Virus record (IMG/VR): IMGVR_UViG_3300028654_000001
Coordinates: 124,001 to 188,000 of that record
Direction: 5' to 3' (one strand)
DNA length: 64,000 nt
Source of the DNA: a virus
Shown piece after piece: positions 208-60,172 of this stretch; the stretch's first letter is position 1, and each line of letters begins with the position of its first letter. The notes below the pieces were generated by a model. That model was not told the origin of the DNA. It saw nothing but the letters and a program-made list of their open reading frames with translations, and made no database searches. The position numbers were made by a program, and so were the translations under genes.

Positions 208-283
208 GTTACCTGAAGTTCGAAACGTAGTTCTCGAGATCAATCCTGTAACTGGTTGGACTCTCTAGTTCTATAGGTGACTA
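208..283 (+). promoter_or_regulatory. Presumed CRISPR leader
   Basis: This non-coding stretch directly precedes the first perfect repeat. The degenerate repeats are all at the opposite (right) end, which is the usual leader-distal end, and the repeats end in ATTGAAAC, the usual crRNA 5' handle, when read on +. Both signs put the leader here. No definite promoter hexamers are visible. Confidence 0.45.
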
Positions 284-2719
284 CTGGGGATCCTTGATTG
301 GATCCCCGTTCATTGAAACTCTCGATACAATGCTCCCAGAGGAAGCCTCTCGGTCAGCTGGGGATCCTTGATTGGATCCCCGTTCATTGAAACAGCTTCG
401 CCACGATGACCGTTTGCGCCTCCCCGTCTTCTGGGGATCCTTGATTGGATCCCCGTTCATTGAAACCCGTAAAGGCGTCAACGTCATCTCGATTCCCATT
501 CTTGCTGGGGATCCTTGATTGGATCCCCGTTCATTGAAACCTTTCAGTGCCGGTTCTCAGAGATGGGGAGAAGGACCTGGGGATCCTTGATTGGATCCCC
601 GTTCATTGAAACGATTGTGTGCAGAACGTCGTCGAGCGCGGTGCGTCCTGGGGATCCTTGATTGGATCCCCGTTCATTGAAACACGGAAACTTGCGGAAG
701 GTCGAATAAAGGGTGAGAACTGGGGATCCTTGATTGGATCCCCGTTCATTGAAACAATGTTGCTGTTTTCCCATCGCCACTCGCAGCGGTCTGGGGATCC
801 TTGATTGGATCCCCGTTCATTGAAACCATCTCGTTGACCATGGTCCCACCCACTACGAGTGGCTGGGGATCCTTGATTGGATCCCCGTTCATTGAAACCA
901 CGCTCTGAGAGGGGCATTCGTTACAGCAATGATGGCTGGGGATCCTTGATTGGATCCCCGTTCATTGAAACAAACGAGTCACGGCAATTGCACCGCGTAC
1001 TGGCCCGAGGTCTGGGGATCCTTGATTGGATCCCCGTTCATTGAAACAGGAGCTCTGCGTCTTGACGTAGGAGGCCTTCAGGCTGGGGATCCTTGATTGG
1101 ATCCCCGTTCATTGAAACCAAGTCCTCAAGTTCCTGCGATTCGCTCCGATCATTCTCTGGGGATCCTTGATTGGATCCCCGTTCATTGAAACGTCAATAA
1201 CCTAATGATTCGGTTCGCAGGCTCTGGGCCTGGGGATCCTTGATTGGATCCCCGTTCATTGAAACGAAGAGTATCATCGCTCGAAGTTTCACCTGTAGCA
1301 GGCTGGGGATCCTTGATTGGATCCCCGTTCATTGAAACGATCCACTGAAGACCCTGACTCCTCGGACTTAGGGCTGGGGATCCTTGATTGGATCCCCGTT
1401 CATTGAAACGGAGCCCTACCTAGTCTGTTCAAGAGCGAGGGAGAGCTGGGGATCCTTGATTGGATCCCCGTTCATTGAAACTGGAACCTTCTTCTGCTCT
1501 ACCGACAGACCGTTGAGCAGCTGGGGATCCTTGATTGGATCCCCGTTCATTGAAACGGCCCTCTTGGGCTGACACCCGGACCCATAAAGATCTGGGGATC
1601 CTTGATTGGATCCCCGTTCATTGAAACTTGGGTTTGATTTTGACTATCCGCTCTCCATAGCAGCTGGGGATCCTTGATTGGATCCCCGTTCATTGAAACG
1701 AGACCAAGACAAGGATTATTCCTCCTCGTCCAGTCTGGGGATCCTTGATTGGATCCCCGTTCATTGAAACACGTCCATGAGTCGCTTGGTCTGATTGGCG
1801 CAAAGTAGCTGGGGATCCTTGATTGGATCCCCGTTCATTGAAACTGGTTGAGGTGAAATCGGTTCGGGCAGCTCGTTGGCTGGGGATCCTTGATTGGATC
1901 CCCGTTCATTGAAACACTCAGCTCCCGAACTCGTTCGAGTCGCTCACGGACTGGGGATCCTTGATTGGATCCCCGTTCATTGAAACGACAGTAGCAACGC
2001 GTCCGAGGGCGGGAACTCTTGGCTGGGGATCCTTGATTGGATCCCCGTTCATTGAAACCTAATGATCGTGCCGAGCACCACGCTCGCTTGGATCTGGGGA
2101 TCCTTGATTGGATCCCCGTTCATTGAAACAAACGAGTCGGTCAACGATGTAGTACCAGTGACTGGGGATCCTTGATTGGATCCCCGTTCATTGAAACGAG
2201 TACCGCTATGATGCAACCGAGTGCGGCAGCCGACTGGGGATCCTTGATTGGATCCCCGTTCATTGAAACAAACCATCTCGCACCGTGACAACAGCCGAAC
2301 TGAACAACGGCTGGGGATCTCTCTGATGAGGTCCCCGATCATTGAAACAAACTACCCCCGCCTCACCCTTTGCGATTCGCCACAAGGCGCTGGGGACCCA
2401 TGATTGGGTCCCCGATCATTGAAACAAACTGGGATAACTACCTTCAAATTCTTGAAACCTTCAGGTCTGGGGACCCATGATTGGGTCCCCGATCATTGAA
2501 ACCTGCGAGTTCGGAACTCTACGGCTGTGGGTGGCGATCCCTGGGGACCCAATCATGGATCCCCGATCATTGAAATAAAATTGTGAATTCTATTAGGCTT
2601 ATCTCACAAAGTTTTGGGGGTCCCTAATGGGGGTCCCCGATCATTGAAATGATATTGCTCCGACCCTACCACCAGCAGAATTTCTTTGGGATCCATGATT
2701 GGGTCCCGTTCATTTAAAC
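284..2719 (+). CRISPR. CRISPR array, 34 repeats, 33 spacers
   Basis: A 36-bp repeat begins CTGGGGATCC and ends GTTCATTGAAAC, with the palindromic arms GGGGATCC and GGATCCCC around TTGATT. Twenty-eight identical copies start at 284, 358, 431 and so on to 2234; six diverged copies follow from 2311. Spacers are mostly 35-38 bp (range 32-41). The ATTGAAAC end resembles handles of type I and III systems. No cas1, cas2, effector or cas6-like gene is found in the remaining 61 kb of the window, so the array is either phage-borne and dependent on outside Cas proteins, or cas genes lie left of position 1. Confidence 0.98.
2311..2719 (+). repeat. Degenerate trailer repeats of the CRISPR array
   Basis: Six diverged repeats start near 2311, 2390, 2467, 2541, 2615 and 2685. 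The copies at 2390 and 2467 are identical to each other and differ from the main repeat at paired positions: GGGGACCC and GGGTCCCC replace GGGGATCC and GGATCCCC, so the stem is preserved. The last copies lose the final C or change CATTGAAAC to CATTTAAAC. Confidence 0.9.
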
Positions 2720-2742
2720 AACCATAATCAATGGATTACACT

Positions 2743-3459: not shown

Positions 3460-3826
3460 TTAGTAGCCTTTCAAATCGGGTTGGTCGAGAACCTCTATAA
3501 GTCTCAGGACTCTCGTTTAGATAGGTATCGAGAATATCCAGAGCTAGATCACTCCAGTACTTCCTAGAGTTCAACTTCCTCATGGTCGGATCAGGGTTGG
3601 CCCTGTTGAACTTCACTCCAGTACTCTTGCACCCCCAGATACCAGTGTAGGTGACAATATTCGGGTCAGATTTCATATTGCGAAGATAGGCGACAAACCA
3701 AACTCTCTGAGGGTTTCGACCTAAGTCTACTACGATAGTCACCTTGTACAGCTTGGAGGCCTCAGAATCTCTGACGATAATATCCCGAACTTGTTGAATT
3801 CGTTGGTCTAGAACTTCAAGAGGCAT
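3449..3826 (-). CDS. C-terminally tagged hypothetical protein
   Basis: A 125-residue protein (ATG at 3826; GTG at 3829 possible) starts inside the stop region of the upstream gene, with GACGAG nearby as a ribosome site. The body looks alpha/beta with no recognised motif. It ends in SRPTRFERLLSDL, the recurrent C-terminal tag. The neighbouring gene 3816-4298 ends in the same tag although the bodies are unrelated. Confidence 0.85.
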   Translation of the reverse strand: MPLEVLDQRIQQVRDIIVRDSEASKLYKVTIVVDLGRNPQRVWFVAYLRNMKSDPNIVTYTGIWGCKSTGVKFNRANPDPTMRKLNSRKYWSDLALDILDTYLNESPETYRGSRPTRFERLLSDL

Positions 3827-4298
3827 CACTCTCGTCCTTGATGATCCGCTCGAATCGCGTGGGCCTGGACTCTACAGGTGGACTACCCGTAGCTCTAACT
3901 AAGTGAGCATGACGTAGATCCATATATAGATAGCTTGTTGGTCCACAGTTATCGCAATAACAAGGACCTATGGGTATAATGTAGTTCTCTGCACTCAAGG
4001 GAGTCTCAGTGAGGAATCCCATACCCATAAATGGTTGCAAGTCAGGTGACTCGCTAATCTCGTTCATCATGGTGGTAGACTCCGATTGGATACGCTCGAA
4101 GTCTTCATCAGTATACACTCCCGGATCAGTGGTATCTAATACGTTGGTGGTTACTTGGAAAGGTCCGCAGCGAGTAGTAACCTCCACACGACCCTCTTGA
4201 ACCGTTGAGACTCTTGTAGCCAATTGATTACAGATGCAGCAACGAACGGCGTACTTCTCAAGGAGTTCCTTGGTGGTGAGGATCATCAAGTCAATCAT
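3816..4298 (-). CDS. Cys-rich, C-terminally tagged protein
   Basis: The start ATG at 4298 overlaps the stop of the upstream gene; TTG at 4322 is an alternative. CCIC near the N-terminus and CYCDNC in the C-terminal third suggest a bound zinc. It ends in ESRPTRFERIIKDESDAS. The gene at 5254-5760 is a paralogue: both share a C-x2-C followed by ATR, a Cys-Asp motif before a Tyr-rich stretch, an LVR or MVRRAT stretch, and the tag. Function unknown. Confidence 0.85.
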   Translation of the reverse strand: MIDLMILTTKELLEKYAVRCCICNQLATRVSTVQEGRVEVTTRCGPFQVTTNVLDTTDPGVYTDEDFERIQSESTTMMNEISESPDLQPFMGMGFLTETPLSAENYIIPIGPCYCDNCGPTSYLYMDLRHAHLVRATGSPPVESRPTRFERIIKDESDAS

Positions 4299-4824
4299 CC
4301 GGATATTGGTAGTAGCCGACAATGTTGATCAACTTTTCAATGAACTTGTAGGCACCAACAATAACGTCATCACTTTGGCTCACACTCTCAGGGCCACTTA
4401 TCTGATGGTCATCGGTGAAAGTGGTGATCACCTTCTCAAGGGATCTGAGTTGAGCCAGGGTAAGAGACTTTCGCACTCGAGGAACATTAACCCCGAAGTC
4501 CATGGGTTCTAGATCAGAGTTAACAATCGGAATCCCGAGCTCACGAGCTCGTTTGACCTCCCTCTTGACCCCCGATGAGGATTCCCAGCCCGGGACAAGC
4601 ACTAGGAGGTCACAGGTCTCTAGTAGGTCCAGAGCTGCCTCCAACCAGAACTCGTAGTCCTGAGTGTCAGCAAAGGGGCTCCAGAACACGTTTGGACAGA
4701 CCGGTACCCAGCCCGCCTTAAGTACGTCGGAGATCACCAGTCGAGCCTTGGAGATGTTCTCCTCAATCTCATCAGCAGAGCCACTATAAGCACCGGAGAC
4801 GAAAGCACGTCCTTTTGTCTTCAT
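4291..4824 (-). CDS. DUF4406 / nucleoside 2-deoxyribosyltransferase-like protein
   Basis: The 177-residue product begins with a strand and Gly loop (AFVSGAYSGSADEIEENI), then WLEAALDLLETCDLLVLVPG and WESSSGVKREVKRARELGIP, the conserved signature of the DUF4406 and nucleoside deoxyribosyltransferase-like fold. Such proteins bind or process nucleotides; the actual substrate is unknown. A C-terminal extension of about 60 residues is unassigned. The start ATG at 4824 follows a GGTGAT site. It heads the run of genes leading to 2743. Confidence 0.8.
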   Translation of the reverse strand: MKTKGRAFVSGAYSGSADEIEENISKARLVISDVLKAGWVPVCPNVFWSPFADTQDYEFWLEAALDLLETCDLLVLVPGWESSSGVKREVKRARELGIPIVNSDLEPMDFGVNVPRVRKSLTLAQLRSLEKVITTFTDDHQISGPESVSQSDDVIVGAYKFIEKLINIVGYYQYPDD

Positions 4825-9845: not shown

Positions 9846-10370
9846 TTAGTCGTTCTCGAGTATCCGTTCAAAGCGAGTCGGCCTTGGTCCAGTATACGAT
9901 TCAGAAAGCCTATTCGCCGGCATGTTATCAATCAACCGTCTCAAGTACCCCATCATAAACCCTACGGGTACGGTCATCTCGGATCCATTGAATTGGGGAG
10001 TGAGTTCCATGAGCGAGTAGCTTAGTGAAAGTACCCAAGTCAGGATTAGGTCTCCGGTGGTCGGGTGTTCAACATAGGTTGGCAAGGTGTGTTGCACCAC
10101 ATAGAGGGTGCCGTCCTGAGCTCCTGGGTTGTTAGACCACAGGACTAGATCTGCTAACAGACTCTGAACTTGATCTGCTATCACAAACCTTCTACCCTCG
10201 AAGGTCAGGCGGGGTAGCCGAAGGATATTCCCAATAGCGATCTCATGAGTAGTGGATACAGTTAGGTTTCGATTGATCCAAAGCACCTCATGGACCGTAG
10301 ATTCACGGGTGAAGTCTGCCACTTCCGAGTTCTGGCCACTGAGCACCCATAAACGGAGATTGACGGGCAC
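9846..10370 (-). CDS. C-terminally tagged hypothetical protein
   Basis: A 174-residue protein starts at GTG 10370 directly after the upstream TGA. It has alternating strands and ends in PRPTRFERILEND, one of the cleanest examples of the C-terminal tag. No catalytic motif visible. Confidence 0.82.
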   Translation of the reverse strand: MPVNLRLWVLSGQNSEVADFTRESTVHEVLWINRNLTVSTTHEIAIGNILRLPRLTFEGRRFVIADQVQSLLADLVLWSNNPGAQDGTLYVVQHTLPTYVEHPTTGDLILTWVLSLSYSLMELTPQFNGSEMTVPVGFMMGYLRRLIDNMPANRLSESYTGPRPTRFERILEND

Positions 10371-11772: not shown

Positions 11773-12420
11773 ATGGATGACCTGAGGATCATCAGCCAAG
11801 TGGCCAAGCGAGTGTCAGCTGCGAGCGTGCCACCTGGAAAGGGCTTCTATACGGGCAAGGACAATACCTTCCACGTGTTCCGAAGTTCAACTCACCTGCA
11901 GGTCCGAGATCTGACCCTCGCCGGCAAACGCGGTAAGACCGTGCCGGAGGTTACGATCATCCTGAACGACAACTACTACAAGGGTGACACTGATGAGTGG
12001 TTCGAGACTGTGATGGAGCAACTGGCCAAGTGTGACACTTGGGCTGATGTCAAGAAGGTGGCCGCTGATGCCAAAGAGGCCGCCCCCGATCACGCAGTAG
12101 TCCTTCACGAGCAGAGTATCAAGGCTATTGAAGTGGCCCCCGCAGGTTCTGAAATCAAGTTCAAGACCCTAGCAGGTGAAGAGATCACAGCTAGTCCTGT
12201 TGAGTTCTACGTCCTACATCGATTTTGGTTTGGTCGAGTTGAGGGTGACCCGAAGAAGCCTGGGTTTGCCCAAGACACTGGCTACTGGTCGAACAACAAG
12301 CAGAGTGCAGCCATATTCTACGCCTACCTGAAGGATAATATGTCCAAGGTAATGAAGATGGGCATCCGCGAGTTACGAGAGCTTTGGAGTGAGCTGAAGG
12401 TCAGCTACCGTTACCACTGA
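11773..12420 (+). CDS. Protein with MDDL...RV N-terminal leader
   Basis: The 215-residue product begins MDDLRIISQVAKRVSAAS, matching the leader on 12427-12705 and 45406-45864. The body mixes strands and helices with no recognised motif. In some tailed phages such short amphipathic N-termini direct proteins into the prohead and are then cleaved; that role here is inference. It lies six bases before the next gene. Confidence 0.8.
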   Translation: MDDLRIISQVAKRVSAASVPPGKGFYTGKDNTFHVFRSSTHLQVRDLTLAGKRGKTVPEVTIILNDNYYKGDTDEWFETVMEQLAKCDTWADVKKVAADAKEAAPDHAVVLHEQSIKAIEVAPAGSEIKFKTLAGEEITASPVEFYVLHRFWFGRVEGDPKKPGFAQDTGYWSNNKQSAAIFYAYLKDNMSKVMKMGIRELRELWSELKVSYRYH

Positions 12421-12426
12421 GGCCCC

Positions 12427-12705
12427 ATGAACGATCTAACCCTCATTGCTCGAGTTGTGGAACGTGTGGCGGCCGCCAACATGTGGGGTGTTGATGTCCG
12501 AGCCATCAACACGTGGCTGAAGAAGAATGTCACCTTTCCTGCGAAGGTCCTCCAGAACCGGGCAAACGTGGTCGACATCGGGACCGATGTGAAGAACGAC
12601 CTTGGGCCATACTCGGAGGCTTTCCAGAAGGCTTTCCCGGGAACCAAGGTGACTCAACCTGGGATGAAGAACTACCTACGCGTCGTGTTCCCCGTCAACA
12701 GGTGA
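12427..12705 (+). CDS. Small protein with MNDL...RV N-terminal leader
   Basis: The 92-residue product starts MNDLTLIARVVERVAAAN. The rest is basic and beta/alpha mixed (NTWLKKNVTFPAKVLQN). It is in tandem with 11773-12420, which shares only the leader, so the leader has been reused on a different body. Confidence 0.8.
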   Translation: MNDLTLIARVVERVAAANMWGVDVRAINTWLKKNVTFPAKVLQNRANVVDIGTDVKNDLGPYSEAFQKAFPGTKVTQPGMKNYLRVVFPVNR

Positions 12706-14508: not shown

Positions 14509-14907
14509 TCAGGGGTTTGGGTTAGTAGTGAGGAGGGCTCGGACATGACGGGCTCGTGTTTCCCAGGCTTCTTCACTCACCCACCTGTGGTGAATGACAG
14601 AAGCCCCAGAGGAAGGCCCGTGCTTGATCTTAGGAGCATCGGCTACTCGCGCTTGTTGCTCCTTTGCATACTTCCTCCACTTGGCCTCAAATAGGGCTAA
14701 GGTAACTTCAACGTCCTTACCCCGAGCTATGCAGGCGTAGGTATCGGCTAGCATACCGTGAATGGGGGCTTCGGCTACATCCGTTCCCGACCATGACTTG
14801 TAAGCAGCGGTCTCAGCATCCCGTTCATAACGAGCAACTTGTAGGAGATACTCAGCATTCGCGGGTGGGGTAACCTCAGGTAGTGCCTCATATTCAGCTT
14901 GATTCAT
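14509..14907 (-). CDS. Helical hypothetical protein
   Basis: A 132-residue, helical, Ala/Glu-rich product with an AAGGAG-type ribosome site (CAAGGAGCTATC) before ATG 14907. A long structured leader lies upstream. Function unknown. Confidence 0.72.
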   Translation of the reverse strand: MNQAEYEALPEVTPPANAEYLLQVARYERDAETAAYKSWSGTDVAEAPIHGMLADTYACIARGKDVEVTLALFEAKWRKYAKEQQARVADAPKIKHGPSSGASVIHHRWVSEEAWETRARHVRALLTTNPNP

Positions 14908-15039
14908 GATAGCTCCTTGAGATTACAACCAGGTAATAAGTTCAGTAAGGAAGTTATGGGTTTTTGACCGCTTCGGTACCGGTCATTCCATCGAGGGAGA
15001 GCCTCGATTCCCAGCTGTCTTTCCAGCCCGTCACGCCTT
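14908..15039 (-). ncRNA. Structured 5' leader candidate
   Basis: Downstream of the promoter element at 15040-15070 the minus-strand RNA can form ATCGAGG-CTCTC-CCTCGAT and TGACCGG-TACCGAA-GCGGTCA hairpins before the ribosome site of 14907. Most genes behind this promoter have no leader, so this one is exceptional and may be regulatory. Confidence 0.45.
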
Positions 15040-15070
15040 AATATTACGGATGAGAGCTCTGAGTCTCAGC
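15040..15070 (-). promoter_or_regulatory. Fixed-spacing promoter element
   Basis: GAGACT-N15-TAATATT on the minus strand. It is about 130 bases before the next ATG, unlike the usual four. Confidence 0.6.
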
Positions 15071-15139
15071 ACTTATTTTGAGAATTAATTACTCTTTCCC
15101 GTCAGGTACTAAATTCAAGTGAGAGTATAAGGATGAGCC

Positions 15140-15415
15140 TCACGCCTCCGGATTTTCGTACAGTTTAGCTTCACCCCACCTGTAATAGCAACGGACTTTT
15201 TTTCCGTCGGAGCCAGCCGAGCACTGAGTTATCTCAGATACCCCAGCTCGTACCTTCTTGACATCACACGGCCCGAACACTTCTCCAGCTATGAACTGAA
15301 TCAAACTTGGGTCAGCCCAAATCGATGCTACACGCATTATCAGGTGCTGGTGCCTTTCACGAAAGGTTGCCATCTCCTTGTGTGTGGGTTTCCTGTACTC
15401 CTCTTCATTTGGCAT
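15140..15415 (-). CDS. Hypothetical protein with Cys residues
   Basis: A 91-residue product, helical first half with three Cys in the second half (CDVKK, CSAG, CYYRW). Function unknown. Confidence 0.68.
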   Translation of the reverse strand: MPNEEEYRKPTHKEMATFRERHQHLIMRVASIWADPSLIQFIAGEVFGPCDVKKVRAGVSEITQCSAGSDGKKVRCYYRWGEAKLYENPEA

Positions 15416-15446
15416 AGATTGTCTCCTAAGTTCAGATACTTGGGTC

Positions 15447-15776
15447 TCACCAACAAGAACTTGATAGTGCGTCCCCTTTCCACCATATCGGGCTCTGGTG
15501 ACGACGGTTGAATAGAATGCTGTCTTGCACTTTACCGTCGATCACTGTCGAATTCGGCCAGTACTCCTTGAGCACCGCTTCAGCCTCCTCAAGGGTGGTG
15601 TTCTGCAAGGGAATGTAGGCTACCACCGAGACGTGCCCCAACCCGTGAGCCTCCTCCCACCAAGGTCCAAGGGGTGGAGTCTTGACCGGACGGGAATCAT
15701 AACCCTTCACTTCAAGTTCGAAGCACACCCAGTTACGCCCAGGAATGCAACTCTCAGCAGTACTGCAGATGTTCAT
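15447..15776 (-). CDS. Hypothetical protein
   Basis: A 109-residue product with Cys near both ends and a strand-rich centre (GLGHVSVVAYIPLQNTTLEE). Its start overlaps the end of the upstream gene by four bases. Confidence 0.68.
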   Translation of the reverse strand: MNICSTAESCIPGRNWVCFELEVKGYDSRPVKTPPLGPWWEEAHGLGHVSVVAYIPLQNTTLEEAEAVLKEYWPNSTVIDGKVQDSILFNRRHQSPIWWKGDALSSSCW

Positions 15777-25178: not shown

Positions 25179-25717
25179 TTTCCTGCTCCTGCGGCCTGGA
25201 GGAGGACCAAAACTTCCATATGGTTCCATCTGCTCCCTGGGTCGAGTATCGAAACATAATCATGTTCCGTGACACTGATCACCGGGGGTCTCTTGTTGAG
25301 CATGTACTTGACGAGTTCGGTACATCCATTCTCACAAGCTTGGATCATGGCTAGAGGGTAGTCAGCATCGGATCGATGTTCTAGGTCCTGGAACATCTGG
25401 TACTGACCGTCTCGAGCAGCCATCTCGAGTGGAGAAAGAGGAGTACCTTTCCCTCCACCAAATACTGGAACAAAACCTCCCATGCGAGAGACCAAGAGAA
25501 TCTCTTCAGGGGTCCTGATAGCAGGGGCATCCTTGAGACGGGTGACGAGGATCGGGAACCCACGGCTGATAGCCCAGGCTAAGAAGATCCCTTCAGCGTT
25601 CGGGTGCTTCAAAGCCCCCTGAACAGCTTTCTTCGTACCCTTTTTCTCCTTTTCCACGTAGGAGGCGACGATCTCTTGCCAGGTAAGGTCCCTCCAGTCC
25701 TTAGGGCCAGGGGTCAT
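25175..25717 (-). CDS. Ankyrin-repeat-like protein
   Basis: In the second half TPLSPLEMAARDGQYQMFQD and YPLAMIQACENGCTELVKYM fit the helix-turn-helix pattern of ankyrin repeats, and a last weaker unit ends in LLQAAGAG. The N-terminal 100 residues are less regular. Likely a protein-interaction module; partner unknown. ATGA overlap with the tagged gene upstream. Confidence 0.6.
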   Translation of the reverse strand: MTPGPKDWRDLTWQEIVASYVEKEKKGTKKAVQGALKHPNAEGIFLAWAISRGFPILVTRLKDAPAIRTPEEILLVSRMGGFVPVFGGGKGTPLSPLEMAARDGQYQMFQDLEHRSDADYPLAMIQACENGCTELVKYMLNKRPPVISVTEHDYVSILDPGSRWNHMEVLVLLQAAGAGK

Positions 25718-26562
25718 AGAGCGATCTCAGGCCTGAGTTGAAGCTGTCCCTTTTTCACCACTTCGAAGAAGACGTAAGGCTCCTTCTTTGCGTAAGGCCG
25801 AGACCTCTCCTCTTCGAGCTCTCCAAGGAAGGCATAGAGCACTTCGCGATCGGTGGTAACCCAATGCTCGAACGAGTCATAGTTCTCAGTATGCTCAGGG
25901 TAACCGTGCCCAGGTGCCTCCCTAGAACGTTGGTCTCCTGGCACAAGTATGCTGTTCCTTGAGTAGATGAGCACTGCGTAGTGATGTCCCTCAGGGACAT
26001 CACCTGGACCTTTCACCCGAATCATCCCTTCAGAAGGTGTAGACCTAAGGTTGTTTGTGATTGCTCTATCAATGGCTGGACTAAAGTGATAGTAGTCCAT
26101 GTTGATGTCCCAAGGATTCTCGTAAAGAACTGGAGCTGGTCCATCCGGATCATCAATTACCCAGGCACGACTTATGATTCCTGGTCTGCTGACTCTGAAA
26201 CTGAGTTGGTACCCCTGAGTGTGACTGACGATGATCGGCCCACCAAAGTCCATGCTGGCTACAGGGGTGTCATCCTCCGGATGTATGAATAGACTTAGTC
26301 CATCAACTGTTACTGATTCCTTAGGCAGGTAACACCCTCTGAAGACAACAAACTTACGAGTCCAGATGCTGTACTCACCTCGTAGGTTGCGCTCCCTGCA
26401 ACTGATAGGCTCTGGCACTTTGATGCAGAGCCTATCATGGGATTCTCCAGCAAAAGTCAACCCAGCCCAAACGTAGGACTTGGGTGGATCTGGGTCTCGT
26501 CGGGAGCTTCGGTCAGGCCTGACATCACTCCAATACTCTTCGATGGGATCTTCATTGCTCAT
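25714..26562 (-). CDS. N-terminally tagged protein, paralogue A
   Basis: The 282-residue protein starts MSNEDPIEEYWSDVRPDR, the recurrent tag, after which YVWAGLTFAGESHDRLCIKV opens a beta-rich domain shared with the next gene 26578-27045 (FAWVGFISRRKTVGTRIMIP). The C-terminal half is absent from the paralogue. No enzyme motif seen. Confidence 0.82.
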   Translation of the reverse strand: MSNEDPIEEYWSDVRPDRSSRRDPDPPKSYVWAGLTFAGESHDRLCIKVPEPISCRERNLRGEYSIWTRKFVVFRGCYLPKESVTVDGLSLFIHPEDDTPVASMDFGGPIIVSHTQGYQLSFRVSRPGIISRAWVIDDPDGPAPVLYENPWDINMDYYHFSPAIDRAITNNLRSTPSEGMIRVKGPGDVPEGHHYAVLIYSRNSILVPGDQRSREAPGHGYPEHTENYDSFEHWVTTDREVLYAFLGELEEERSRPYAKKEPYVFFEVVKKGQLQLRPEIAL

Positions 26563-26577
26563 ATGGGGCCACCCAGG

Positions 26578-27045
26578 TCAGGGATCTCTCGCTCCAAAGC
26601 TCTCTCTATCGTGCACTAGAGTTGGTATTGATTCTGAAGTCTTGGTAAGCCAACATGCATTGAGGTATCCAAAACCCGTGATACGAAACCAAAGGTTGAG
26701 AGGTTCGTGTTTGGAAACCGTTCTCCTATAGAGGATTAGTCTAGCTATCGGCTCGTTTCCAACTTCTGATAGGTACAGGTGGAGGGCTTCAACCTCGTGC
26801 GACTCATTAGGTGCATAGTTGAGCTGGAAGACTTGGATCTCTTGTTCCCTTTCAGTCTCCTCAATGATAACTCTCATCGGGGCAGGGATCGGGATCATGA
26901 TGCGAGTCCCAACAGTCTTCCTCCTGGATATGAACCCTACCCAAGCGAAACCCCTTCCCTCTTGTTCGACCTTGGCGATCTCCTCTGCTGAGCGCCGGTT
27001 GGGTCTTATTAGCCCCCAATCAGATTCAATGCTGTCGTCGACCAT
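26578..27045 (-). CDS. N-terminally tagged protein, paralogue B
   Basis: A 155-residue protein beginning MVDDSIESDWGLIRPNRR, paralogous to the N-terminal half of 25714-26562. It overlaps the upstream gene by 20 bases. The pair arose by duplication and the tag was kept in both. Confidence 0.82.
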   Translation of the reverse strand: MVDDSIESDWGLIRPNRRSAEEIAKVEQEGRGFAWVGFISRRKTVGTRIMIPIPAPMRVIIEETEREQEIQVFQLNYAPNESHEVEALHLYLSEVGNEPIARLILYRRTVSKHEPLNLWFRITGFGYLNACWLTKTSESIPTLVHDRESFGARDP

Positions 27046-37574: not shown

Positions 37575-37907
37575 TCAGCTATCAGATAACTGCTCTTTCT
37601 TACTTTGACGATATGCTCTCTTGTACGCCCTAGATCTAGTGTTTGAGTCAACTGAGCATCTCCAATTACCATTATCCCTCGAAGTTATCTTTACCACACC
37701 ACAGTTAGTACAAGTGGCAGTTCTAGCTTCAGTGTCTATGTTTGATAAACGATGCTTCCACCGCTTGGTTTGAGATCCAGACTTTAGAGTACCTCGGCGA
37801 AGATATCTATAGTAGCAAGCTACACAAAACCCTCGAGCTCGGACGATCTTACCACACCCTGGGGTTTGGCACACTTCACTGGTTAGTTCAGTTGGTTCTG
37901 ATGGCAC
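37575..37907 (-). CDS. Zinc-containing, possible truncated HNH relative
   Basis: The 110-residue product has CQTPGCGKIVRARGFCVACY and ATCTNCGVVKI, two zinc knuckles like those before the catalytic part of phage HNH endonucleases, but no HNH core follows. GTG start directly after the stop of the AT-hook pseudogene. Confidence 0.62.
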   Translation of the reverse strand: MPSEPTELTSEVCQTPGCGKIVRARGFCVACYYRYLRRGTLKSGSQTKRWKHRLSNIDTEARTATCTNCGVVKITSRDNGNWRCSVDSNTRSRAYKRAYRQSKKEQLSDS

Positions 37908-38037
37908 TCAGTCTTCTTCCTCGAAGTCAAACTTCGATCGGGGTGAGGACTTGAGCTCTTCGTTCTTCGTCCGCCCCTCTTCTTAGCCCTTCGTCTGGGC
38001 TCCCCCATCTCTGGTTCAGGTTCAAAGCTAGTGGGGC
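37908..38037 (-). pseudogene. Frameshifted copy of the AT-hook gene
   Basis: PTSFEPEPEMGEPRRRAKKR matches the intact gene at 39016-39195, then the frame is lost in a G run and the end ELKSSPRSKFDFEEED is in another frame. The start region is replaced and contains an in-frame TAG. Confidence 0.75.
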
Positions 38038-38118
38038 CCTGGACGGCCTATATAAACATCATAGGCTGATCGCTTGCAGTGGACAACAAAGGTGAGCACT
38101 AGAGTAGATACATCAAGG

Positions 38119-38787
38119 TCATAACGGAAAGTCTAGTGGTTCGTCAAGCATCCCAATTGTTGGGGTCTCTGGTGTCACCTGGGTGTTTTGGATTACCTCA
38201 GCGTTACCAGAGACTTGAACCCAATTGATTGTACCATTAAAGTCCAGGTTATTTGATATAGCTTGTAGTCCGACTACCAGGAACATTGGCAGGAATAAAC
38301 CGGACTCAACTCCAGGGGAGATCGCCCAAGGTTGAGCTACCGAATCTCCGACTTGAAGAGCAGCGGTCAGAGCACCTTGAATAGGGCTCTTCAAATTGTA
38401 CGAAAGTCTGATCTTGAGTTGAGTTCCTTGTAGGTTAGCTGGTCCGGAGGGGAGACCCTCTCCAAGTACAGTCCCAGCCCCATCAACGGATAGGTAACCG
38501 AAAGGTCTGTTGATATCATCAAGTGCAATCCCAACAAACTTTGTAGGGTTTGGCCAACAATCCACTAGGAAAGCTACAGAACGGTTTGATCCTGTAGCCC
38601 CTAGAGTGAGTAGGACCTCGAGAGTACCGATGTCAGACAGGGCTAGAGACTGAATAGAGTTAGCTTCAAACACCCCACTGATGAGGAGTCCTGGATTAAC
38701 CAGTGGTCGTACTAGATCCATACTCGACCTAGCATAGTTTATTATGGATACCAGACCAGTTGGATAGTAAATCTTGAATTCAGTCAT
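38119..38787 (-). CDS. Putative tail or receptor-binding accessory protein
   Basis: A 222-residue beta-rich product beginning MTEFKIYYPTGLVSIINYAR. A broken copy of its first 20 residues lies at 39539-39634. Location between tail-fibre copies and composition (Gly, Ser, Leu, few Lys) suggest a virion protein. Confidence 0.6.
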   Translation of the reverse strand: MTEFKIYYPTGLVSIINYARSSMDLVRPLVNPGLLISGVFEANSIQSLALSDIGTLEVLLTLGATGSNRSVAFLVDCWPNPTKFVGIALDDINRPFGYLSVDGAGTVLGEGLPSGPANLQGTQLKIRLSYNLKSPIQGALTAALQVGDSVAQPWAISPGVESGLFLPMFLVVGLQAISNNLDFNGTINWVQVSGNAEVIQNTQVTPETPTIGMLDEPLDFPL

Positions 38788-38808
38788 GGGTTACTCCTGC
38801 ACCAAACA

Positions 38809-38931
38809 TTAATCACCAACTGGTTGAGTCGGAAAGTTGGTGACACTCTGAACCTAGATGCTAGAATCACCTAACCCAACTGGGGAAGCTAGGGTTGTTG
38901 AAGCTTGATTTGAAAACCGCTCCGTAGTCAT
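38809..38931 (-). pseudogene. Remnant of the tail-fibre N-terminus
   Basis: MTTERFSNQASTTLA continues as GLGDSSI, a TAG and then VQSVTNFPTQP, matching the first 36 residues of 40453-41979 (MTTERFSNQASTTLATSVGS). The rest of the fibre is missing. Confidence 0.85.
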
Positions 38932-38977
38932 ACTTGGAACGGTTCAATAAGAGATTCACCAGGAACTAAGTTGAAGG

Positions 38978-39022
38978 GGACTGATTTTTTTAGTACTCAC
39001 CTGGGAATCAAAAAATCAGTCC
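38978..39022. terminator. Bidirectional terminator
   Basis: GGACTGATTTTTT and AAAAAATCAGTCC form a 13-bp stem, overlapping the end of the AT-hook gene. A and T runs on both arms allow function in either direction. Confidence 0.75.
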
Positions 39023-39195
39023 TCTTCTTCGAAGTCTTCGAAGTCAAGCTTTGATCGGATGGATGACTTGAGCTCCCCATCCTCCGTCTCACCCTTTTTC
39101 GGCCGCCCTCGCTTCCTTGCCCTTCGTCTGGGCTCTCCAGTCTCGGGTTCAGGTTCAAAGCTAGTAGGGCACTCTGAAGAAAAGGTGATGCTCAT
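39016..39195 (-). CDS. AT-hook protein
   Basis: Read by eye (59 codons). A strong AGGAG-type site precedes ATG 39195. RRRARKRGRPKKG is an AT-hook (core RGRP), which binds the minor groove of AT-rich DNA; the rest is acidic and ends in DFEDFEEED. A frameshifted duplicate lies at 37908. Confidence 0.82.
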   Translation of the reverse strand: MSITFSSECPTSFEPEPETGEPRRRARKRGRPKKGETEDGELKSSIRSKLDFEDFEEED

Positions 39196-39237
39196 AAGAG
39201 CCTCCTTCTCCTATCTACACCTCATAAAACAAAAAGG

Positions 39238-39274
39238 GAACGACCCCGGGTAATGCCAAAACCCAGGGTCGTTC
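39238..39274 (-). terminator. Hairpin terminator of the GAACGACC family
   Basis: GAACGACCCCGGGT and ACCCAGGGTCGTTC pair; on the minus strand the stem is followed by CCCTTTTTG. It insulates the AT-hook gene from the tail genes to the right. Confidence 0.8.
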
Positions 39275-39341
39275 AACCTACTTAGAACAGTCCGCAAGAA
39301 ATGTGACGAAATGACTAACAATCACCAAACAAGACTGTAGC

Positions 39342-39557
39342 CTACACCACCCTCCAAATCGTGTCAACAGTCAAATTGGATGGTTGACTACCCATGGGTT
39401 CCTCTGTAACTTTATGATCACTCTTTCTTACTTTTTGGATGAGTTCGACTGCAGAGAAGCCCGCCGGTAGTAGTTCCCTGGTGGGCTTCGCCTATTAGGG
39501 CTTTGCACTCCAGAAGCGAAGTAGGTTCTTCACCTCTGTCAGATCTGTTGGGGACAT
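39342..39557 (-). pseudogene. ORF broken by tandem stops TAA TAG
   Basis: MSPTDLTEVKNLLRFWSAKP is followed by TAA TAG and then, in the same frame, AKPTRELLPAGFSAVELIQK up to DTIWRVV and a stop. The 9 bases on each side of the stops are near-identical (GCAAAGCCC, GCGAAGCCC), as if a short duplication created the stops. The two halves together look like one 70-residue protein. Confidence 0.5.
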
Positions 39558-39634
39558 GTCGTTGACCAGCAGCTAGTCCAGTAGCTAACCATTGATATCA
39601 GACCCGTAGGGTAGTAGATTTTTAGTTCTGTCAT
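39539..39634 (-). pseudogene. Truncated copy of the 38119-38787 N-terminus
   Basis: MTELKIYYPTGLISMVSY parallels MTEFKIYYPTGLVSIINY and then diverges to a stop. It lies directly downstream of the SGNH gene, the position expected if the 38-kb gene has been deleted from this module. Confidence 0.8.
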
Positions 39635-39707
39635 GATCACCCTATAGTTTTTGAAAGAAAATTGCGGCCTAGAACAGAGTCTGTGGCTCGGGTGATTGGT
39701 TGTGCTC

Positions 39708-40448
39708 TCACAAACTCACAACACGTGACTTAATGTCAGACGCCACCAACCGAGCCTGTCTATCGAGATCATACTGGCTTAGGTGTATATTACTTGTTAC
39801 TGTGGTGACGTCTAGAGATCCACCGACAATCGATGCATGGGCATCAGCGGCAACCATAGATGCTTGTGCTGCCCGTGCAGCTGGTAGGTAGGTTACATCC
39901 GGTCCAGGTGTATAGCTGTTGCAGAGCTGAATCACAGTCAGATGCAGTGAGGGTATCCCAAGTGCAGATCTGATCGTGGCAACACTGGTAGCAGTATCCG
40001 CCTGCCAAGTACTGGGTGTCCCCTCGTAGAGCATCGCCTCCCCTTGTGACCACACTAGGGTTATACTGCGAGGAGAAATCATGGCCGTCATCCGAGCCGA
40101 GATATATGCTGCCCAGGTGCTTACGACTTCTGCACGAAGATCAGCTGCGTTTATCCCGGGTCGACTGATGGTGCAAATGGACGGCCGAAGCCCAGTATAT
40201 CTCATTTGCGCCGCCAATGACGTAGCCAAATAACCACAAGGGAGCCCGGCTCCAGAAAGTCCCGGTGGGTACTCTTGCCCAGTATGCCACGAGTCGTCTA
40301 TTGAGTAGTTTTGTTGTGACCAGTTCCTATCGTGCTGCTCTCGACTCGGCCACTTCGTTAGCAAATCCCCATAAGGTCCGCAGTTAGACTGACCCACAAC
40401 AAAAACAACGTCACGGTAGTGGTATAGCTCTGAAGCTAGTGCAGTCAT
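39708..40448 (-). CDS. SGNH-hydrolase (sialate O-acetylesterase-like)
   Basis: The 246-residue product has FVVGQSNCGPYGD (nucleophile Ser about 21), a Gly and Asn region, WSQGEAMLYEG and NIHLSQYDLDRQ near the end carrying the catalytic His. This order matches carbohydrate O-acetylesterases. On a phage tail it would trim acetyl groups from surface sugars. It begins five bases past the fibre's stop. Confidence 0.8.
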   Translation of the reverse strand: MTALASELYHYRDVVFVVGQSNCGPYGDLLTKWPSREQHDRNWSQQNYSIDDSWHTGQEYPPGLSGAGLPCGYLATSLAAQMRYTGLRPSICTISRPGINAADLRAEVVSTWAAYISARMTAMISPRSITLVWSQGEAMLYEGTPSTWQADTATSVATIRSALGIPSLHLTVIQLCNSYTPGPDVTYLPAARAAQASMVAADAHASIVGGSLDVTTVTSNIHLSQYDLDRQARLVASDIKSRVVSL

Positions 40449-40452
40449 CAAA

Positions 40453-41979
40453 TCACCAAGCTATCCCTGACATTGTTAGCCAGTGCTGCATTTGTGTGTC
40501 ATCTCCAACTGAGGCCTGAACGCACCATCCGTGCAACACACAGTTGAGATAGTAGCTACCGAACCCAATACCCCACGGATTAGTCAAGATAGCTTGCGCT
40601 ACTCCAGTCACCAAGGACCCAGCCACACCATCGACATAAAGAATCACAGTTGAATTTGTACGACTGACGCGCAGCTCATAATTATGCTTTCCAACGACGC
40701 ATAAACCAACGGGACCCCCGCCAGGTGCAGCCTGCGAGTAACCAACGTTACTCCCGGCTGAGTTGAATCCTGTGGCACAATGAATGCCTACATATTGATT
40801 GGTCCCTGGGCATAAGAACAATAGCTCCCCGGCACCACTAGCCGAAGAAAGTGTCATTGTCCAACGCAAGGTGAAATCTGAAGTAGCTCCCGCTGCTCCC
40901 GCTGCCACACCAGTTACAGCTAAAGCTGTAGTACACGTAACACCTTTCAAAGCGGATGAGTAGGTCCCCTGATGACCAGCAGCAAAAGATAAGTTACGAC
41001 TAGCACCAGATGCATCAGGCCACGTCGGAACCAGGGCACCATCTGCCAGCCCCAGAGTGTCAGCGTAATACAGCTGTTCAGGGCTATCTGCTAGTATAGC
41101 AGCTCTAGCCACAAGCAGCCCGTCCGGTGTCTGGTCATCTGCGGACACGTCTGTCGTGTAAATACGAACATGACCTCGCACATTGAACTTGTATAGTGGG
41201 TCACCACTAATCTGTAGCTCAAGTGAGTTACCATTGGCGACCCATATAGGGTTCCACGTAATGTCCGTGACTTCAAGGGGTATGCCAAGAGATTGCGAGG
41301 TCACAATGAGAGAAGCAGACCCGATTCGATGAGCTGTACAAACCAGTGTGCCAGTCAAGAATTTTTGACCGGCGGCCGAGCACATAAGGTCCACCTCAGC
41401 TCTCACCACTGTGGACGGAGGCACCGGAAACGGAAGACCAGGATTTGACCCAACAACTGTTGTTATAGATACAGGGCCAGATCCGGCGGCGATAAAGGTC
41501 GTGGCCAATGACGCCCCTGAGGGGGTCTCCCAATCAGCAGCAGTCCCACTCGTAGCAGTCAGGACCTGTCCAGGGGTTGGAGCTGCTGCTGAAGAGACTG
41601 AGACTACTGTAGTGGCCGTTCTAATTCCAGAGGCTGTTCGATCATTGGAGAGACGAGAGTCACTGGTCTGAACCGTGTTCTGAGGGATCTCAGCTTCGAT
41701 CTCGGTCCTCAACTCATCGATACCACCTGCGGTCAGCACCCCAATTACTACCGATCCTGCCGCATGAGAGGAATCTGTTGTTCCCTCTACCCCTCTAAGC
41801 ACAGTCCAAGTTGTTCCTGAGATCCCAGTCACCAGCATTAGTTCCTGACCTATTCTGATCCGAAACTCTGGTTGATTAGGGAAATGAGTTGTGACTTGAA
41901 CCGAGATGCTCAAGTCACCAGATCCAACTGAGGTAGCTAATGTGGTTGAGGCTTGATTGGAGAATCTCTCAGTCGTCAT
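40453..41979 (-). CDS. Tail fibre with lectin-like C-terminus
   Basis: A 508-residue protein. Residues 1-110 (MTTERFSNQASTTLATSVGS, then LRGVEGTTDSSHAAGSVV) resemble an attachment region; the middle is Ala/Gly/Ser-rich; residues from about 290 (YYADTLGLADGALVPTWPDA) to the end fit a concanavalin-like lectin fold. Together with the esterase downstream it forms a receptor-recognition module. A broken duplicate of the first 36 residues lies at 38809-38931. Confidence 0.82.
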   Translation of the reverse strand: MTTERFSNQASTTLATSVGSGDLSISVQVTTHFPNQPEFRIRIGQELMLVTGISGTTWTVLRGVEGTTDSSHAAGSVVIGVLTAGGIDELRTEIEAEIPQNTVQTSDSRLSNDRTASGIRTATTVVSVSSAAAPTPGQVLTATSGTAADWETPSGASLATTFIAAGSGPVSITTVVGSNPGLPFPVPPSTVVRAEVDLMCSAAGQKFLTGTLVCTAHRIGSASLIVTSQSLGIPLEVTDITWNPIWVANGNSLELQISGDPLYKFNVRGHVRIYTTDVSADDQTPDGLLVARAAILADSPEQLYYADTLGLADGALVPTWPDASGASRNLSFAAGHQGTYSSALKGVTCTTALAVTGVAAGAAGATSDFTLRWTMTLSSASGAGELLFLCPGTNQYVGIHCATGFNSAGSNVGYSQAAPGGGPVGLCVVGKHNYELRVSRTNSTVILYVDGVAGSLVTGVAQAILTNPWGIGFGSYYLNCVLHGWCVQASVGDDTQMQHWLTMSGIAW

Positions 41980-45405: not shown

Positions 45406-45864
45406 TTACCACTTGACATCTTCAAGTGCTGCTTCTGCCCAATACCCTCCTGGGCCTGCCCAAATAACCTTAGGTGGGTCTGGGCGGTGAAAAATAGAAC
45501 TACCCATAGCTTTCCAAGCTGTAGATCCTTCGTTAACGTGGTGAGCTATCACCTTGTAAGTCTTTCCAGCTGGTTTCTCAGGTTTACCAACCACCTTAAC
45601 GAGGGTTCCCTTAGGGATAAGGATCTCTTTCCCCTTAAGATTAGGGATAGGCTCTCCAACTCCATACTTAGGTGGTTTTACACCACGACGTCGATCTTCA
45701 TCCCCTACTAACCAACCTTCATTATAGTCAGAATCAACCCACTCAGATAACTTTGGGTCTGGATCTTTTCCTTGAAGGCCATCCATATACCCCTCGTGAG
45801 TCCAATTACTAGTTCTAGATACTACCCTTCGAACTACTCTGGTTATGATTCCTAGATCGTTCAT
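45406..45864 (-). CDS. Protein with detachable N-terminal leader, paralogue A
   Basis: The 152-residue product begins MNDLGIITRVVRRVVSRT, then GYMDGLQGKDPDPKLSEWVD and ends in GPGGYWAEAALEDVKW. The paralogue 59738-60172 has the same body (GYMDAFYGKDQDP to GAGGYWAEADLNDI) but starts without the leader. Upstream TAGTATCGAGT-ATG resembles the promoter's -10 end. Confidence 0.82.
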   Translation of the reverse strand: MNDLGIITRVVRRVVSRTSNWTHEGYMDGLQGKDPDPKLSEWVDSDYNEGWLVGDEDRRRGVKPPKYGVGEPIPNLKGKEILIPKGTLVKVVGKPEKPAGKTYKVIAHHVNEGSTAWKAMGSSIFHRPDPPKVIWAGPGGYWAEAALEDVKW

Positions 45865-49259: not shown

Positions 49260-50735
49260 CTAGGCTGGATCCTCTAAAGAGAAGTCATCCTCAGAAGGCT
49301 CCTGGTTCCTACCCTCTATTGAATCCCTCGGAGGCTGGTAGGCACGTCTCTCGGTTGGGTAGAGCTCCTCTGGGCGAGGGAACGTGCCTGGGGCACTCAT
49401 AGGTAGGAACTCCACTCGGAAGTTAAGTAGTACTCTCCTACGCCAGTCATCCTCCCCATAGTGGTTGAAGGTTCTCCTTCCTAACTCATCAAGAGAGGTC
49501 TGTAGATTAGTGAGAACCCGCCTGTTGAGGGGTTCTGCCATGTTATCGGATGTCTCAATGATTCCATTGAGCAGTAGGGCAACTCGCCTGAGGTTGATAC
49601 GGGTGTCATACTCCCGCTCATCATCGGAACGTCTCTCAGGTAACTCTAGGTCTGCTGTATTATGGCCTAGAAACATGGTACCAGCAGCAGCCATTCGTCT
49701 CTCATGTTGGGGTACCTCGTTCCTATTGATCTCCGACAATCTTGTTAGAGCATGACCATCATTCTCGCTTGTGAAGTATCTGCGAATCTCATCCTGAGTT
49801 GGTAGGTGTCCTACCATCCCCATGTACTGCTCAGTGTACGCTAGGATCCTACGATCTGCAGCAGTACTGTCATGGGCATGAGTCCCCTGTCGATGAACAC
49901 TCCCTCGACGAATATGGTAGGTCACCTCAAAGGTGTTGAGGGTATCTTGCCACCAATTAGTACGCATGTTGTGGGCAGCACCTTGAGCTTCAACCCAAGT
50001 GAACAACTCGGTGATGATCGAATCAATGTGCTCATCGTCCCCAACCCTGTCGACGAGTTCTTGAAGGTTGCTCAGTAGTAGGGCCAATCTTCGCATATCA
50101 AGAATGGATTGGCTTTGGGACTCGCCCACTTCCTGAGGGGCTGCTACTTCTTGGGGTAAACTTGGAGACTGGATATCATCATCGAGACCCCCTACACGAA
50201 CAATCAAGTCTAGGATTCGTTCCTGAACCCTCATGCTCGAGATGAAGTGCCCACGCATAATGGATATCGGTGGGTATGAGCGGTTCTCCTTGCAGTACTC
50301 TAGAACGTAGTCACTGATCTGCTTATCTATCTCAGAAATGTTTTGAGTAGGAGTGTTTTGGTGCAGCCTTCTCAAGTACGCCCAGAGCTCACCCCCAGTC
50401 AGTGTTCGACTGTACAACTGACCCTGCACCACTCGGTCTAGCAGACTAACACACCCAGGTTTTGACCACTCTTCGAAGGTTATACGAATATCCTCGTAGT
50501 CAGGGTACTCATCCGTATTCCGGTGTTGCCGATTCAAATGAGTAATGATCTGGTTAGCATTCTCAGTCTGGGAAATGTACTCAGGGGGCGGATTTGCAAA
50601 CACTCGAGTCAGAATGTTGAGTATCTGTTGCCCACTAGGGTTCCATTGGTCCCGAGCCTCTTGGGGTACCCCTGGGGAGGATCGCAGTCCCTGTCGATGA
50701 TCCCAGTAGGATTCAACTTCATTATCGTCTGGCAT
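49260..50735 (-). CDS. Long N-terminally tagged helical protein
   Basis: ATG 50735 has GAGG six bases upstream. The 491-residue product starts MPDDNEVESYWDHRQGLR and is helical and polar throughout, with three comparable segments (for example ISDYVLEYCKENRSYPPISI and LAYTEQYMGMVGHLPTQDEI) suggesting internal repeats. Largest tagged protein here. No enzyme motif. Confidence 0.78.
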   Translation of the reverse strand: MPDDNEVESYWDHRQGLRSSPGVPQEARDQWNPSGQQILNILTRVFANPPPEYISQTENANQIITHLNRQHRNTDEYPDYEDIRITFEEWSKPGCVSLLDRVVQGQLYSRTLTGGELWAYLRRLHQNTPTQNISEIDKQISDYVLEYCKENRSYPPISIMRGHFISSMRVQERILDLIVRVGGLDDDIQSPSLPQEVAAPQEVGESQSQSILDMRRLALLLSNLQELVDRVGDDEHIDSIITELFTWVEAQGAAHNMRTNWWQDTLNTFEVTYHIRRGSVHRQGTHAHDSTAADRRILAYTEQYMGMVGHLPTQDEIRRYFTSENDGHALTRLSEINRNEVPQHERRMAAAGTMFLGHNTADLELPERRSDDEREYDTRINLRRVALLLNGIIETSDNMAEPLNRRVLTNLQTSLDELGRRTFNHYGEDDWRRRVLLNFRVEFLPMSAPGTFPRPEELYPTERRAYQPPRDSIEGRNQEPSEDDFSLEDPA

Positions 50736-51213
50736 GATCATCCTCAGAATTAGACAAGAGATCACTCATCTCTTGAAAGTAACTCAAGCGTGGATCTTCA
50801 GGCCCAATGTTGAGGTCTTGGACTCTACTATCAATCACGTCTATCAACCTGGTGAAGTTGTAGCGGATCCCAGCTGAGTTCAAGAGATTACGTAATCGAA
50901 CCGTTGTATATACAAGCTCTCGAAAGAGAGACCCGTTTGATCTCTCTGTCCCGCTTAAGTGGTGCGAGTAGGGTGGGTCTGTAACGACGGAAGTGAAGGT
51001 TACGTTTGATTCTTCAACTTCAACAGGGGAGTCATCACCATAATCAATGGTGTAACGAGTCACGTAGGGGGTTGACTCCTCATCGGACTCAACTGGGTCT
51101 TCTAAAGCAACCACGTCGACAATAGGCACATTGGTTAGGGTACTCAGATCCCGCTGGGGTCGAAGTCCTTCCCAAAAGGACTCGATGTCATCAGTGTCAG
51201 TTGAGGTACCCAT
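50722..51213 (-). CDS. N-terminally tagged protein
   Basis: A 163-residue product beginning MGTSTDTDDIESFWEGLRPQ. Beta-rich middle, helical end. Its start lies inside the end of the small ORF 51144-51278. Confidence 0.78.
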   Translation of the reverse strand: MGTSTDTDDIESFWEGLRPQRDLSTLTNVPIVDVVALEDPVESDEESTPYVTRYTIDYGDDSPVEVEESNVTFTSVVTDPPYSHHLSGTERSNGSLFRELVYTTVRLRNLLNSAGIRYNFTRLIDVIDSRVQDLNIGPEDPRLSYFQEMSDLLSNSEDDHARR

Positions 51214-58160: not shown

Positions 58161-58751
58161 ATGGAGGACGACTTCGAAGAGTACTGGGCGGCTATCAGGC
58201 CTGAACGAAAACCGTCTATGAAGGATCTCCGGGACGAGCTCCTCAAGATTGCCAAACTTCGTGAAGAAGAGTGGGACTTGATGACCCATAGGAACTACCC
58301 TTCACCTCCCGAGAGCTTGTTCGAGGAGTCGCGTGAGGAACCCTTCTTCAATGGTCCAGGCGAGAGTATTCCGGCAGATTTACCACTGGTTGTCAATATT
58401 GGGAACCCTGATCTGGGAGATGTAGCAACCAGAGAGTACATCGAGTCTATTCTCCACACTTACTCTGAGGTGCATCAATTTCATATAGATGGAGGCGGAT
58501 CTGTTCGAGTTGACTACCCTCCATCAATTATTGGCGACGGTCCGATCTCTGGGGGTGGATCGCTTCTCATCACTACAGGTGAGGGTTTACAAGCTTCTAG
58601 CTGGGGTAGTACCAATGAGCTCAGGCTTGAACTACAGAATAACTCAGAATTCAGAGTTTTACAGGATCGAGTTACCAGACTCGAACAAGAAAATCGAGAA
58701 CTGCGATCTCGTGTGAATACCCTAGCATTAGCCATAAGGAATCGACGATGA
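58161..58751 (+). CDS. N-terminally tagged coiled-coil protein
   Basis: The 196-residue rightward gene starts MEDDFEEYWAAIRPERKPSM, the tag at the exact N-terminus. The middle is Gly-rich and beta; the end (LQDRVTRLEQENRELRSRVN) is a coiled coil. Coupled to the next gene by ATGA. Confidence 0.82.
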   Translation: MEDDFEEYWAAIRPERKPSMKDLRDELLKIAKLREEEWDLMTHRNYPSPPESLFEESREEPFFNGPGESIPADLPLVVNIGNPDLGDVATREYIESILHTYSEVHQFHIDGGGSVRVDYPPSIIGDGPISGGGSLLITTGEGLQASSWGSTNELRLELQNNSEFRVLQDRVTRLEQENRELRSRVNTLALAIRNRR

Positions 58752-59741: not shown

Positions 59742-60172
59742 GAGTTTGCCTTCAGGATATCATTCAAGTCGGCTTCTGCCCAGTAGCCACCAGCACCTGG
59801 CCACACAACCTTCGGAGATGTGGGTCGGACGTAATCCTTCCGAAATGCACTCCCTTGAGTATAGAAGGTGCTTCCAGCGTTAACGTGATCTACCGTAATA
59901 CTGTAAGTCCTACCAGCGGGCTTCGGGTCTTTCCCTACCACCTTGACAATGGTCCCCTTGGGAATGACAATGGTCTGCCCCTTCTTGATTGGAAGGTCCT
60001 CTTCCCGGTAGTACCCTAGGAACTGAGGGGGCCGCGTGCCAACTTTGAGCTCGTCTCTGTCATACAAGCCTACGAGGTAACCCTCTTCATACTCAGGGCT
60101 GGTCTGCTCTGGGTCTTGATCTTTCCCGTAGAAGGCATCCATGTAACCTTGGTGAATTGGGCTTGTGTACAT
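59738..60172 (-). CDS. Paralogue B of 45406-45864, without the leader
   Basis: The 144-residue product starts MYTSPIHQGYMDAFYGKD, entering the shared body directly; 45406-45864 has an additional MNDL...RV leader. Shared motifs include KGTIVKVVGKDPKPAGRTYS and VWPGAGGYWAEADLND. The promoter element is four bases upstream, confirming this start. Confidence 0.82.
   Translation of the reverse strand: MYTSPIHQGYMDAFYGKDQDPEQTSPEYEEGYLVGLYDRDELKVGTRPPQFLGYYREEDLPIKKGQTIVIPKGTIVKVVGKDPKPAGRTYSITVDHVNAGSTFYTQGSAFRKDYVRPTSPKVVWPGAGGYWAEADLNDILKANS

Follow-up and report, generated by a model that had tools for sequence, protein, structure and literature searches.

Three gene families recur in matching order in two adjacent stretches of a phage genome, and we consider it probable that these stretches are two old copies of one cassette, diverged to about 75% DNA identity, from which different members were lost late, with one gene of the left copy, MTEF (protein start MTEFKIYYPTG), kept and now transcribed from the promoter of a dead fibre gene. 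The window analysed is the whole 64,000-nucleotide stretch at positions 124001-188000 of a 512,571 bp virus record (IMG/VR IMGVR_UViG_3300028654_000001). The virus is a huge, uncultivated tailed phage and its hosts are bacteria.

All features of the locus lie on the minus strand (Table 1). The families common to both stretches are the start of a fibre gene, a gene whose product begins MTE(L/F)KIYYPTG, and a short basic gene with an AT-hook-like motif. In the order of transcription, the right stretch comprises the fibre, a putative esterase, the remnant of an MTEL-type gene, a fragment termed X, a terminator hairpin and the basic ORF; the left stretch follows with a second hairpin, the fibre fossil, the MTEF gene and a basic-ORF fossil ending at 37908. 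The right copy thus has an intact fibre, esterase and basic ORF, and an MTEL gene reduced to 18 recognisable codons, whilst in the left copy the MTEF gene is intact, the fibre is a fossil, and the basic ORF is startless and frameshifted.

Table 1. Features of the locus in order of transcription (window coordinates)
Feature	Position	Strand	Remarks
Intact fibre-like gene, 508 aa	40453..41979	-	PHROG tail families, E 4e-7
Putative SGNH/SASA carbohydrate esterase, 247 aa	39708..40451	-	PF03629 E 2.6e-4
MTELKIYYPTG remnant, 18 recognisable codons	39581..39634	-	Alignment to MTEF; in 31-codon frame
Fragment X, reads VKNLLRFWSAKP-stop	39496..39554	-	83% identical to 3' end of L020 67-codon ORF
Strong hairpin with T run, terminator between MTEL/X remnants and basic ORF	39238..39274	-	-26.7 kcal/mol, z -4.9
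Intact basic ORF, 59 aa	39016..39195	-	One AT-hook-like motif KRGRPKKG; good ribosome-binding site
Symmetrical terminator-like hairpin between basic ORF and fibre stub	38973..39027	-	-21.8 kcal/mol, z -4.0
CTTATT motif	38946..38951	-	20 nt before stub ATG; possible promoter, function inferred
Fibre fossil, N-terminus only	38820..38934	-	ATG 38931; TAG at codon 26 (38856-38854), then frameshift
Intact MTEFKIYYPTG gene, 222 aa	38119..38787	-	Purifying selection against L020 homologue
Basic (AT-hook-like) ORF fossil	37908..38040	-	Start lost, frameshifted

The left stretch (37.9-39.0 kb) was aligned to the right stretch (39.0-42.06 kb). The DNA similarity consists of exactly three collinear, same-strand islands, with a total alignable length of only ~300 nt. 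The island at the fibre start (38934-38820 against 41982-41868) spans 116 columns at 74% identity (E 3e-14, self search of the whole window), that of the MTE genes (38787-38734 against 39634-39581) spans 54 nt at 72-74% (E 3.5e-6, search of the two pieces), and that of the basic ORFs (38040-37918 against 39173-39035) spans 139 columns at 75% (E 6e-19, whole-window self search). Sensitive alignment of the two stretches gave no fourth island, nothing further scoring below E about 1. Several genes therefore match collinearly and in one orientation, as is characteristic of a tandem segmental duplication. The first-pass annotation had described such a duplication from short shared peptides; the similarity does run past the peptides quoted there, yet by tens of bases only. 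Its picture of two collinear copies with complementary losses is borne out, the islands being in the same order and each copy being intact where the other is broken, and its figure of 36 codons for the left fibre was fair, as similarity of the fossil to the fibres is lost at about codon 38. Within the 512.6-kb record the MTE and basic-ORF families are confined to this locus. Thus, chance repetition of abundant families does not account for the common order, and duplication explains it best.

A search of the whole record found that the N-terminal ~120 aa of the right fibre are common to five further intact genes, at record positions 13138(+), 19699(+), 61132(+), 71355(-) and 511023(-), which are 41-78% identical to the right fibre. 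The family in the record therefore has at least seven members (six intact genes and one fossil) dispersed over the genome, with lengths from 235 to 992 aa and C-termini that are mostly unalignable. The other five intact fibres are of 822 and 814 aa (beta-helix), 992 aa, 498 aa and 235 aa; the beta-helix family PF13229 was found in the 822-aa fibre and matched the 814-aa fibre weakly, and the C-terminal part of the right fibre has a lectin-like look (by eye only). Several genes sharing an N-terminal domain and differing in their C-terminal domains are characteristic of multi-fibre families, and the dispersed genes appear to differ in the receptor-binding or enzymatic parts at their ends. The phage's repertoire for host attachment is a set of paralogues scattered over the genome, at least one of them dead.

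AlphaFold was used to model the N-terminal domain from 11 sequences and gave a pLDDT of about 84-95 over residues 11-80. The model was structurally most similar to chains of phage virions and tails and to the N-termini of tailspikes (VP1, GP4 portal-tail, Mystique, AP22 Gp54 and K64-1 S2-4; E 4e-4 and weaker), so a virion-attachment role for the fibre N-terminus is likely. At the sequence level, no close match to the N-terminal family was found in the phage collection, and a scan of viral contigs for close relatives of the right fibre found nothing. Two further observations concern this family. The 13-kb fibre, the paralogue closest to the right fibre, resembles it in being followed by a possible enzyme gene, here a possible hydrolase at L013:6572-7708 (record 14571-15707), with a GHSGG motif by eye and no family match. 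A diverged fibre N-terminus (E 4.5e-19) was seen at L046:9743-10255 (G002), within a 170-codon ORF in which it is apparently joined to a cysteine-rich segment.

The differences between the copies, pooled over the three islands, number 9, 6 and 29 at codon positions 1, 2 and 3, respectively (p 2e-5; the basic-ORF differences were counted by hand on the alignment). This third-position bias indicates that both copies were under coding constraint while most of the divergence built up, and that the stops, frameshifts and truncations came late. Both copies thus appear to have been functional for most of their separation and to have decayed late, although the dating is weak with so little alignable DNA. 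A tree of the fibre N-termini placed the right fibre with the 13-kb one (support 92/95) and, without support, the stub with the one at 61 kb. As to whether the two copies are each other's closest relatives, forcing the stub and the right fibre to be sisters was marginally disfavoured (p-AU 0.065), and the MTE genes could be compared over 54 nt only. Since the stub and right fibre are not favoured as sisters, replacement or conversion may have affected the fibre portion of one copy.

The events would then have begun with an old duplication of a host-attachment cassette made up of a fibre N-terminus, an MTE-type protein and a small basic ORF. Both copies would have remained functional until they had drifted to about three-quarters DNA identity, and each would then have lost different members. 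The stub would be the fossil of one gene of the dispersed fibre family. MTEF probably survives because its protein, presumably a virion component, is still in use, and its transcription probably now starts at what would be the promoter of the dead fibre.

An MTE gene was found in only one contig of the viral collection, IMGVR_UViG_3300031712_000006 (L020). This contig has an intact MTEL gene (225 aa), with a decayed fibre N-terminus within 50 nt downstream and a 67-codon X-type ORF just upstream, whereas in the window X stands after the MTEL remnant. Both phages therefore have an intact MTE gene beside a dead fibre, but the arrangements differ. Fragment X and L020 have 24 identical nt that are unique to these two records. 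MTEF and its L020 homologue are 60% identical in amino acid sequence, with dN 0.34 and dS 2.3. The unduplicated ancestor to be expected among relatives under the first-pass proposal was not found: L020 has a single MTE gene, its own decayed fibre and a different order. Over the same 54 nt, the two window copies are 72% identical, and the L020 gene is 76-78% identical to them. Because the window copies are no closer to one another than to L020, the MTE duplication may be older than this phage lineage, or the two may have been acquired separately. MTEF gave no family match and a structure model from two sequences with a pLDDT of 37; no MTE match was found in the phage collection, and neither a close-relative scan of viral contigs with MTEF nor a search of genome contigs with the MTE pair found anything.

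Separate arrival would make the locus a hot spot where fibre or attachment cassettes land repeatedly, the shared order being partly coincidence or a result of insertion at conserved gene starts. Such a history would suit the dispersal of fibre N-termini over the genome, a stub that is no more distant from the 61-kb fibre than from the right fibre, the presence in L020 of X, MTE and a fibre fossil in another order, and the X neighbour that the right MTEL remnant shares with L020. However, the MTE and basic ORF occur here only and twice in the same order, which separate insertions would have to repeat, and we regard this history as rather unlikely. The original proposal, if taken as a recent tandem duplication of the module with reciprocal loss, by which one complete working set is split over two half-copies, accounts for the common order and strand, the complementary intact members and the similar identities of the islands (72-75%). 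The 25% divergence with its third-position bias, however, speaks of a long life as functional genes before a late decay; the right fibre clusters with that at 13 kb, the fibre, with its five intact paralogues, is not a two-copy gene, and no trace of the SGNH gene was found in the left copy. A young tandem duplication is thus unlikely, and the idea that the two halves now form one set is not supported; an old duplication with later fibre replacement or conversion would fit. That stubs are kept as recombination landing sites for swapping fibre ends, also suggested in the first pass, is highly improbable, for although a role as temporary docking sites for new receptor-binding proteins has been proposed for truncated ones in Klebsiella phages (PMC6872550) and exact runs of up to 33 nt shared by intact fibres hint at past exchange among those genes, the longest exact run of the stub is 8 nt with the right fibre and 14 nt with any fibre, making it a poor site, and it is diverging, with both a stop and a frameshift in its sequence.

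Under the preferred reading of an old duplication with late losses, the 5' end of the fossil can be given another role. A CTTAT, CTATG or CTATA sequence is found 18-23 nt before the start in 6/6 intact fibres (2.7% expected per slot), and the fossil has retained a motif of this type. MTEF has a ribosome-binding site, GCAGGAG (by eye), and its own upstream 90 nt are without a CTTAT-type motif; the hairpins on either side of the basic ORF leave the stub and MTEF as a unit of their own. On the simplest reading, transcription of MTEF would start at the promoter of the dead fibre and run through the stub. We suggest, tentatively, that the 5' end of the dead fibre may have been kept because its promoter and leader now drive MTEF, fibre turnover handing signals on to new genes. 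If the motif really is the MTEF promoter, the persistence of the stub is explained without recombination. A sigma-70 promoter scan gave chance-level results only, and an Rfam search found no RNA element. The fibre motif resembles the TATG late promoter of phiKZ-like phages (PMC4666361); no link is claimed, because a phage RNA polymerase beta-type gene (PF00562) was searched for and not found. Stop-codon recoding was rejected for the stub, as TAG ends 19/105 long ORFs and the stub is also frameshifted.

Shortened receptor-binding genes have been described in several phage groups. In Klebsiella KP32/KP34 phages, one of two receptor-binding proteins may be cut to a short conserved N-terminus while its partner is intact; the truncated protein of KpV767 has 69 aa, and either member may be lost (PMC6872550). 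The present locus is similar in having one receptor-binding gene shortened to its N-terminus beside an intact partner. However, those phages are small podoviruses with two such proteins. The present record, of 512 kb, has six or more intact fibres; its stub contains a stop and is a non-coding fossil, and the gene left intact beside it encodes an MTE protein that looks unrelated. The branched tail-spike complexes of Ackermannviridae (CBA120, S117) have conserved N-termini and variable ends and are thought to have originated by duplication; in S117, tsp4 was seen truncated to its N-terminal domains and tsp3 lost (PMC11414711). Several genes with conserved N-termini, variable ends and a truncated member are likewise seen here, but the Ackermannviridae spikes carry gp10-like XD domains, and sequence profiles detected no such Pfam family in 6/6 fibres, which sets them apart from that type. 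Ackermannviridae spike genes are also clustered, in contrast to the dispersed fibre genes here. The Alcyoneusvirus jumbo phages RaK2 and phiK64-1 have many fibre proteins on conserved N-terminal domains (PMC10253068). They resemble this phage in being very large and in building fibres on conserved N-termini, and our model weakly matches a K64-1 depolymerase, but their N-terminal family is a different one. The locus is a further example of the known truncation and turnover of receptor-binding proteins, in a different N-terminal family; it reflects ordinary gain and loss of attachment genes and not a new kind of system, and it shows an intermediate stage of fibre turnover in a huge uncultivated phage.

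The remaining genes of the locus were characterized by their motifs and family matches. The 247-aa protein matches Pfam SASA (PF03629) at 21.1 bits, below the gathering cut-off of 24.8. It has GQSN and SQGE motifs (by eye) and a PHROG tail protein match (E 1e-3), which point weakly to the putative SGNH label; no match to it was found in the phage collection. Its ATG start is probably one codon inside a TTG start. The AT-hook label of the basic ORF comes from its single KRGRPKKG motif alone, which has the RGRP core and basic flanks of an AT-hook; no Pfam or other family matched the protein, no relative was found outside the locus, and a close-relative scan of viral contigs found nothing. In the left basic ORF, similarity is absent before codon 9 of the right copy, and the frameshift is of 1 base. 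A small zinc-finger ORF (37575-37907) begins right where this fossil ends; it has weak HNH endonuclease PHROG matches (E 1.8e-4), and the HNH core seems absent.

Several other observations were made in the record. A CRISPR-like array at window 263-2738 has about 33 units of ~72 bp with the 36-nt repeat CTGGGGATCCTTGATTGGATCCCCGTTCATTGAAAC. The motif (D/E)IE(E/S)(Y/F)WxxIRPxR occurs in 13/291 sampled, otherwise different ORFs, mostly at or near the N-terminus (window 25714-26562, 26578-27045, 50722-51213, 58161-58751 and others; L013, L014, L015, L017 and L018), and could be a targeting or docking peptide. RPTRF(E/D)RI(L/I) forms the C-terminal end of six different ORFs (window 3816-4322 and 9846-10370; L014, L017 and L018); neither motif was found in shuffled sequences. 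An N-terminal tag, MxDxxIxxRVAxR(V/Y/F)xxA, possibly a sorting signal, is common to different proteins, also in the relative G002 (window 11773-12420, 12427-12705 and 45406-45864; L013:14319-15596, L014:5327-6664, L046 and L047). Lastly, window 45415-45799 and 59756-60155 have 62% DNA similarity and are probably a paralogous pair.
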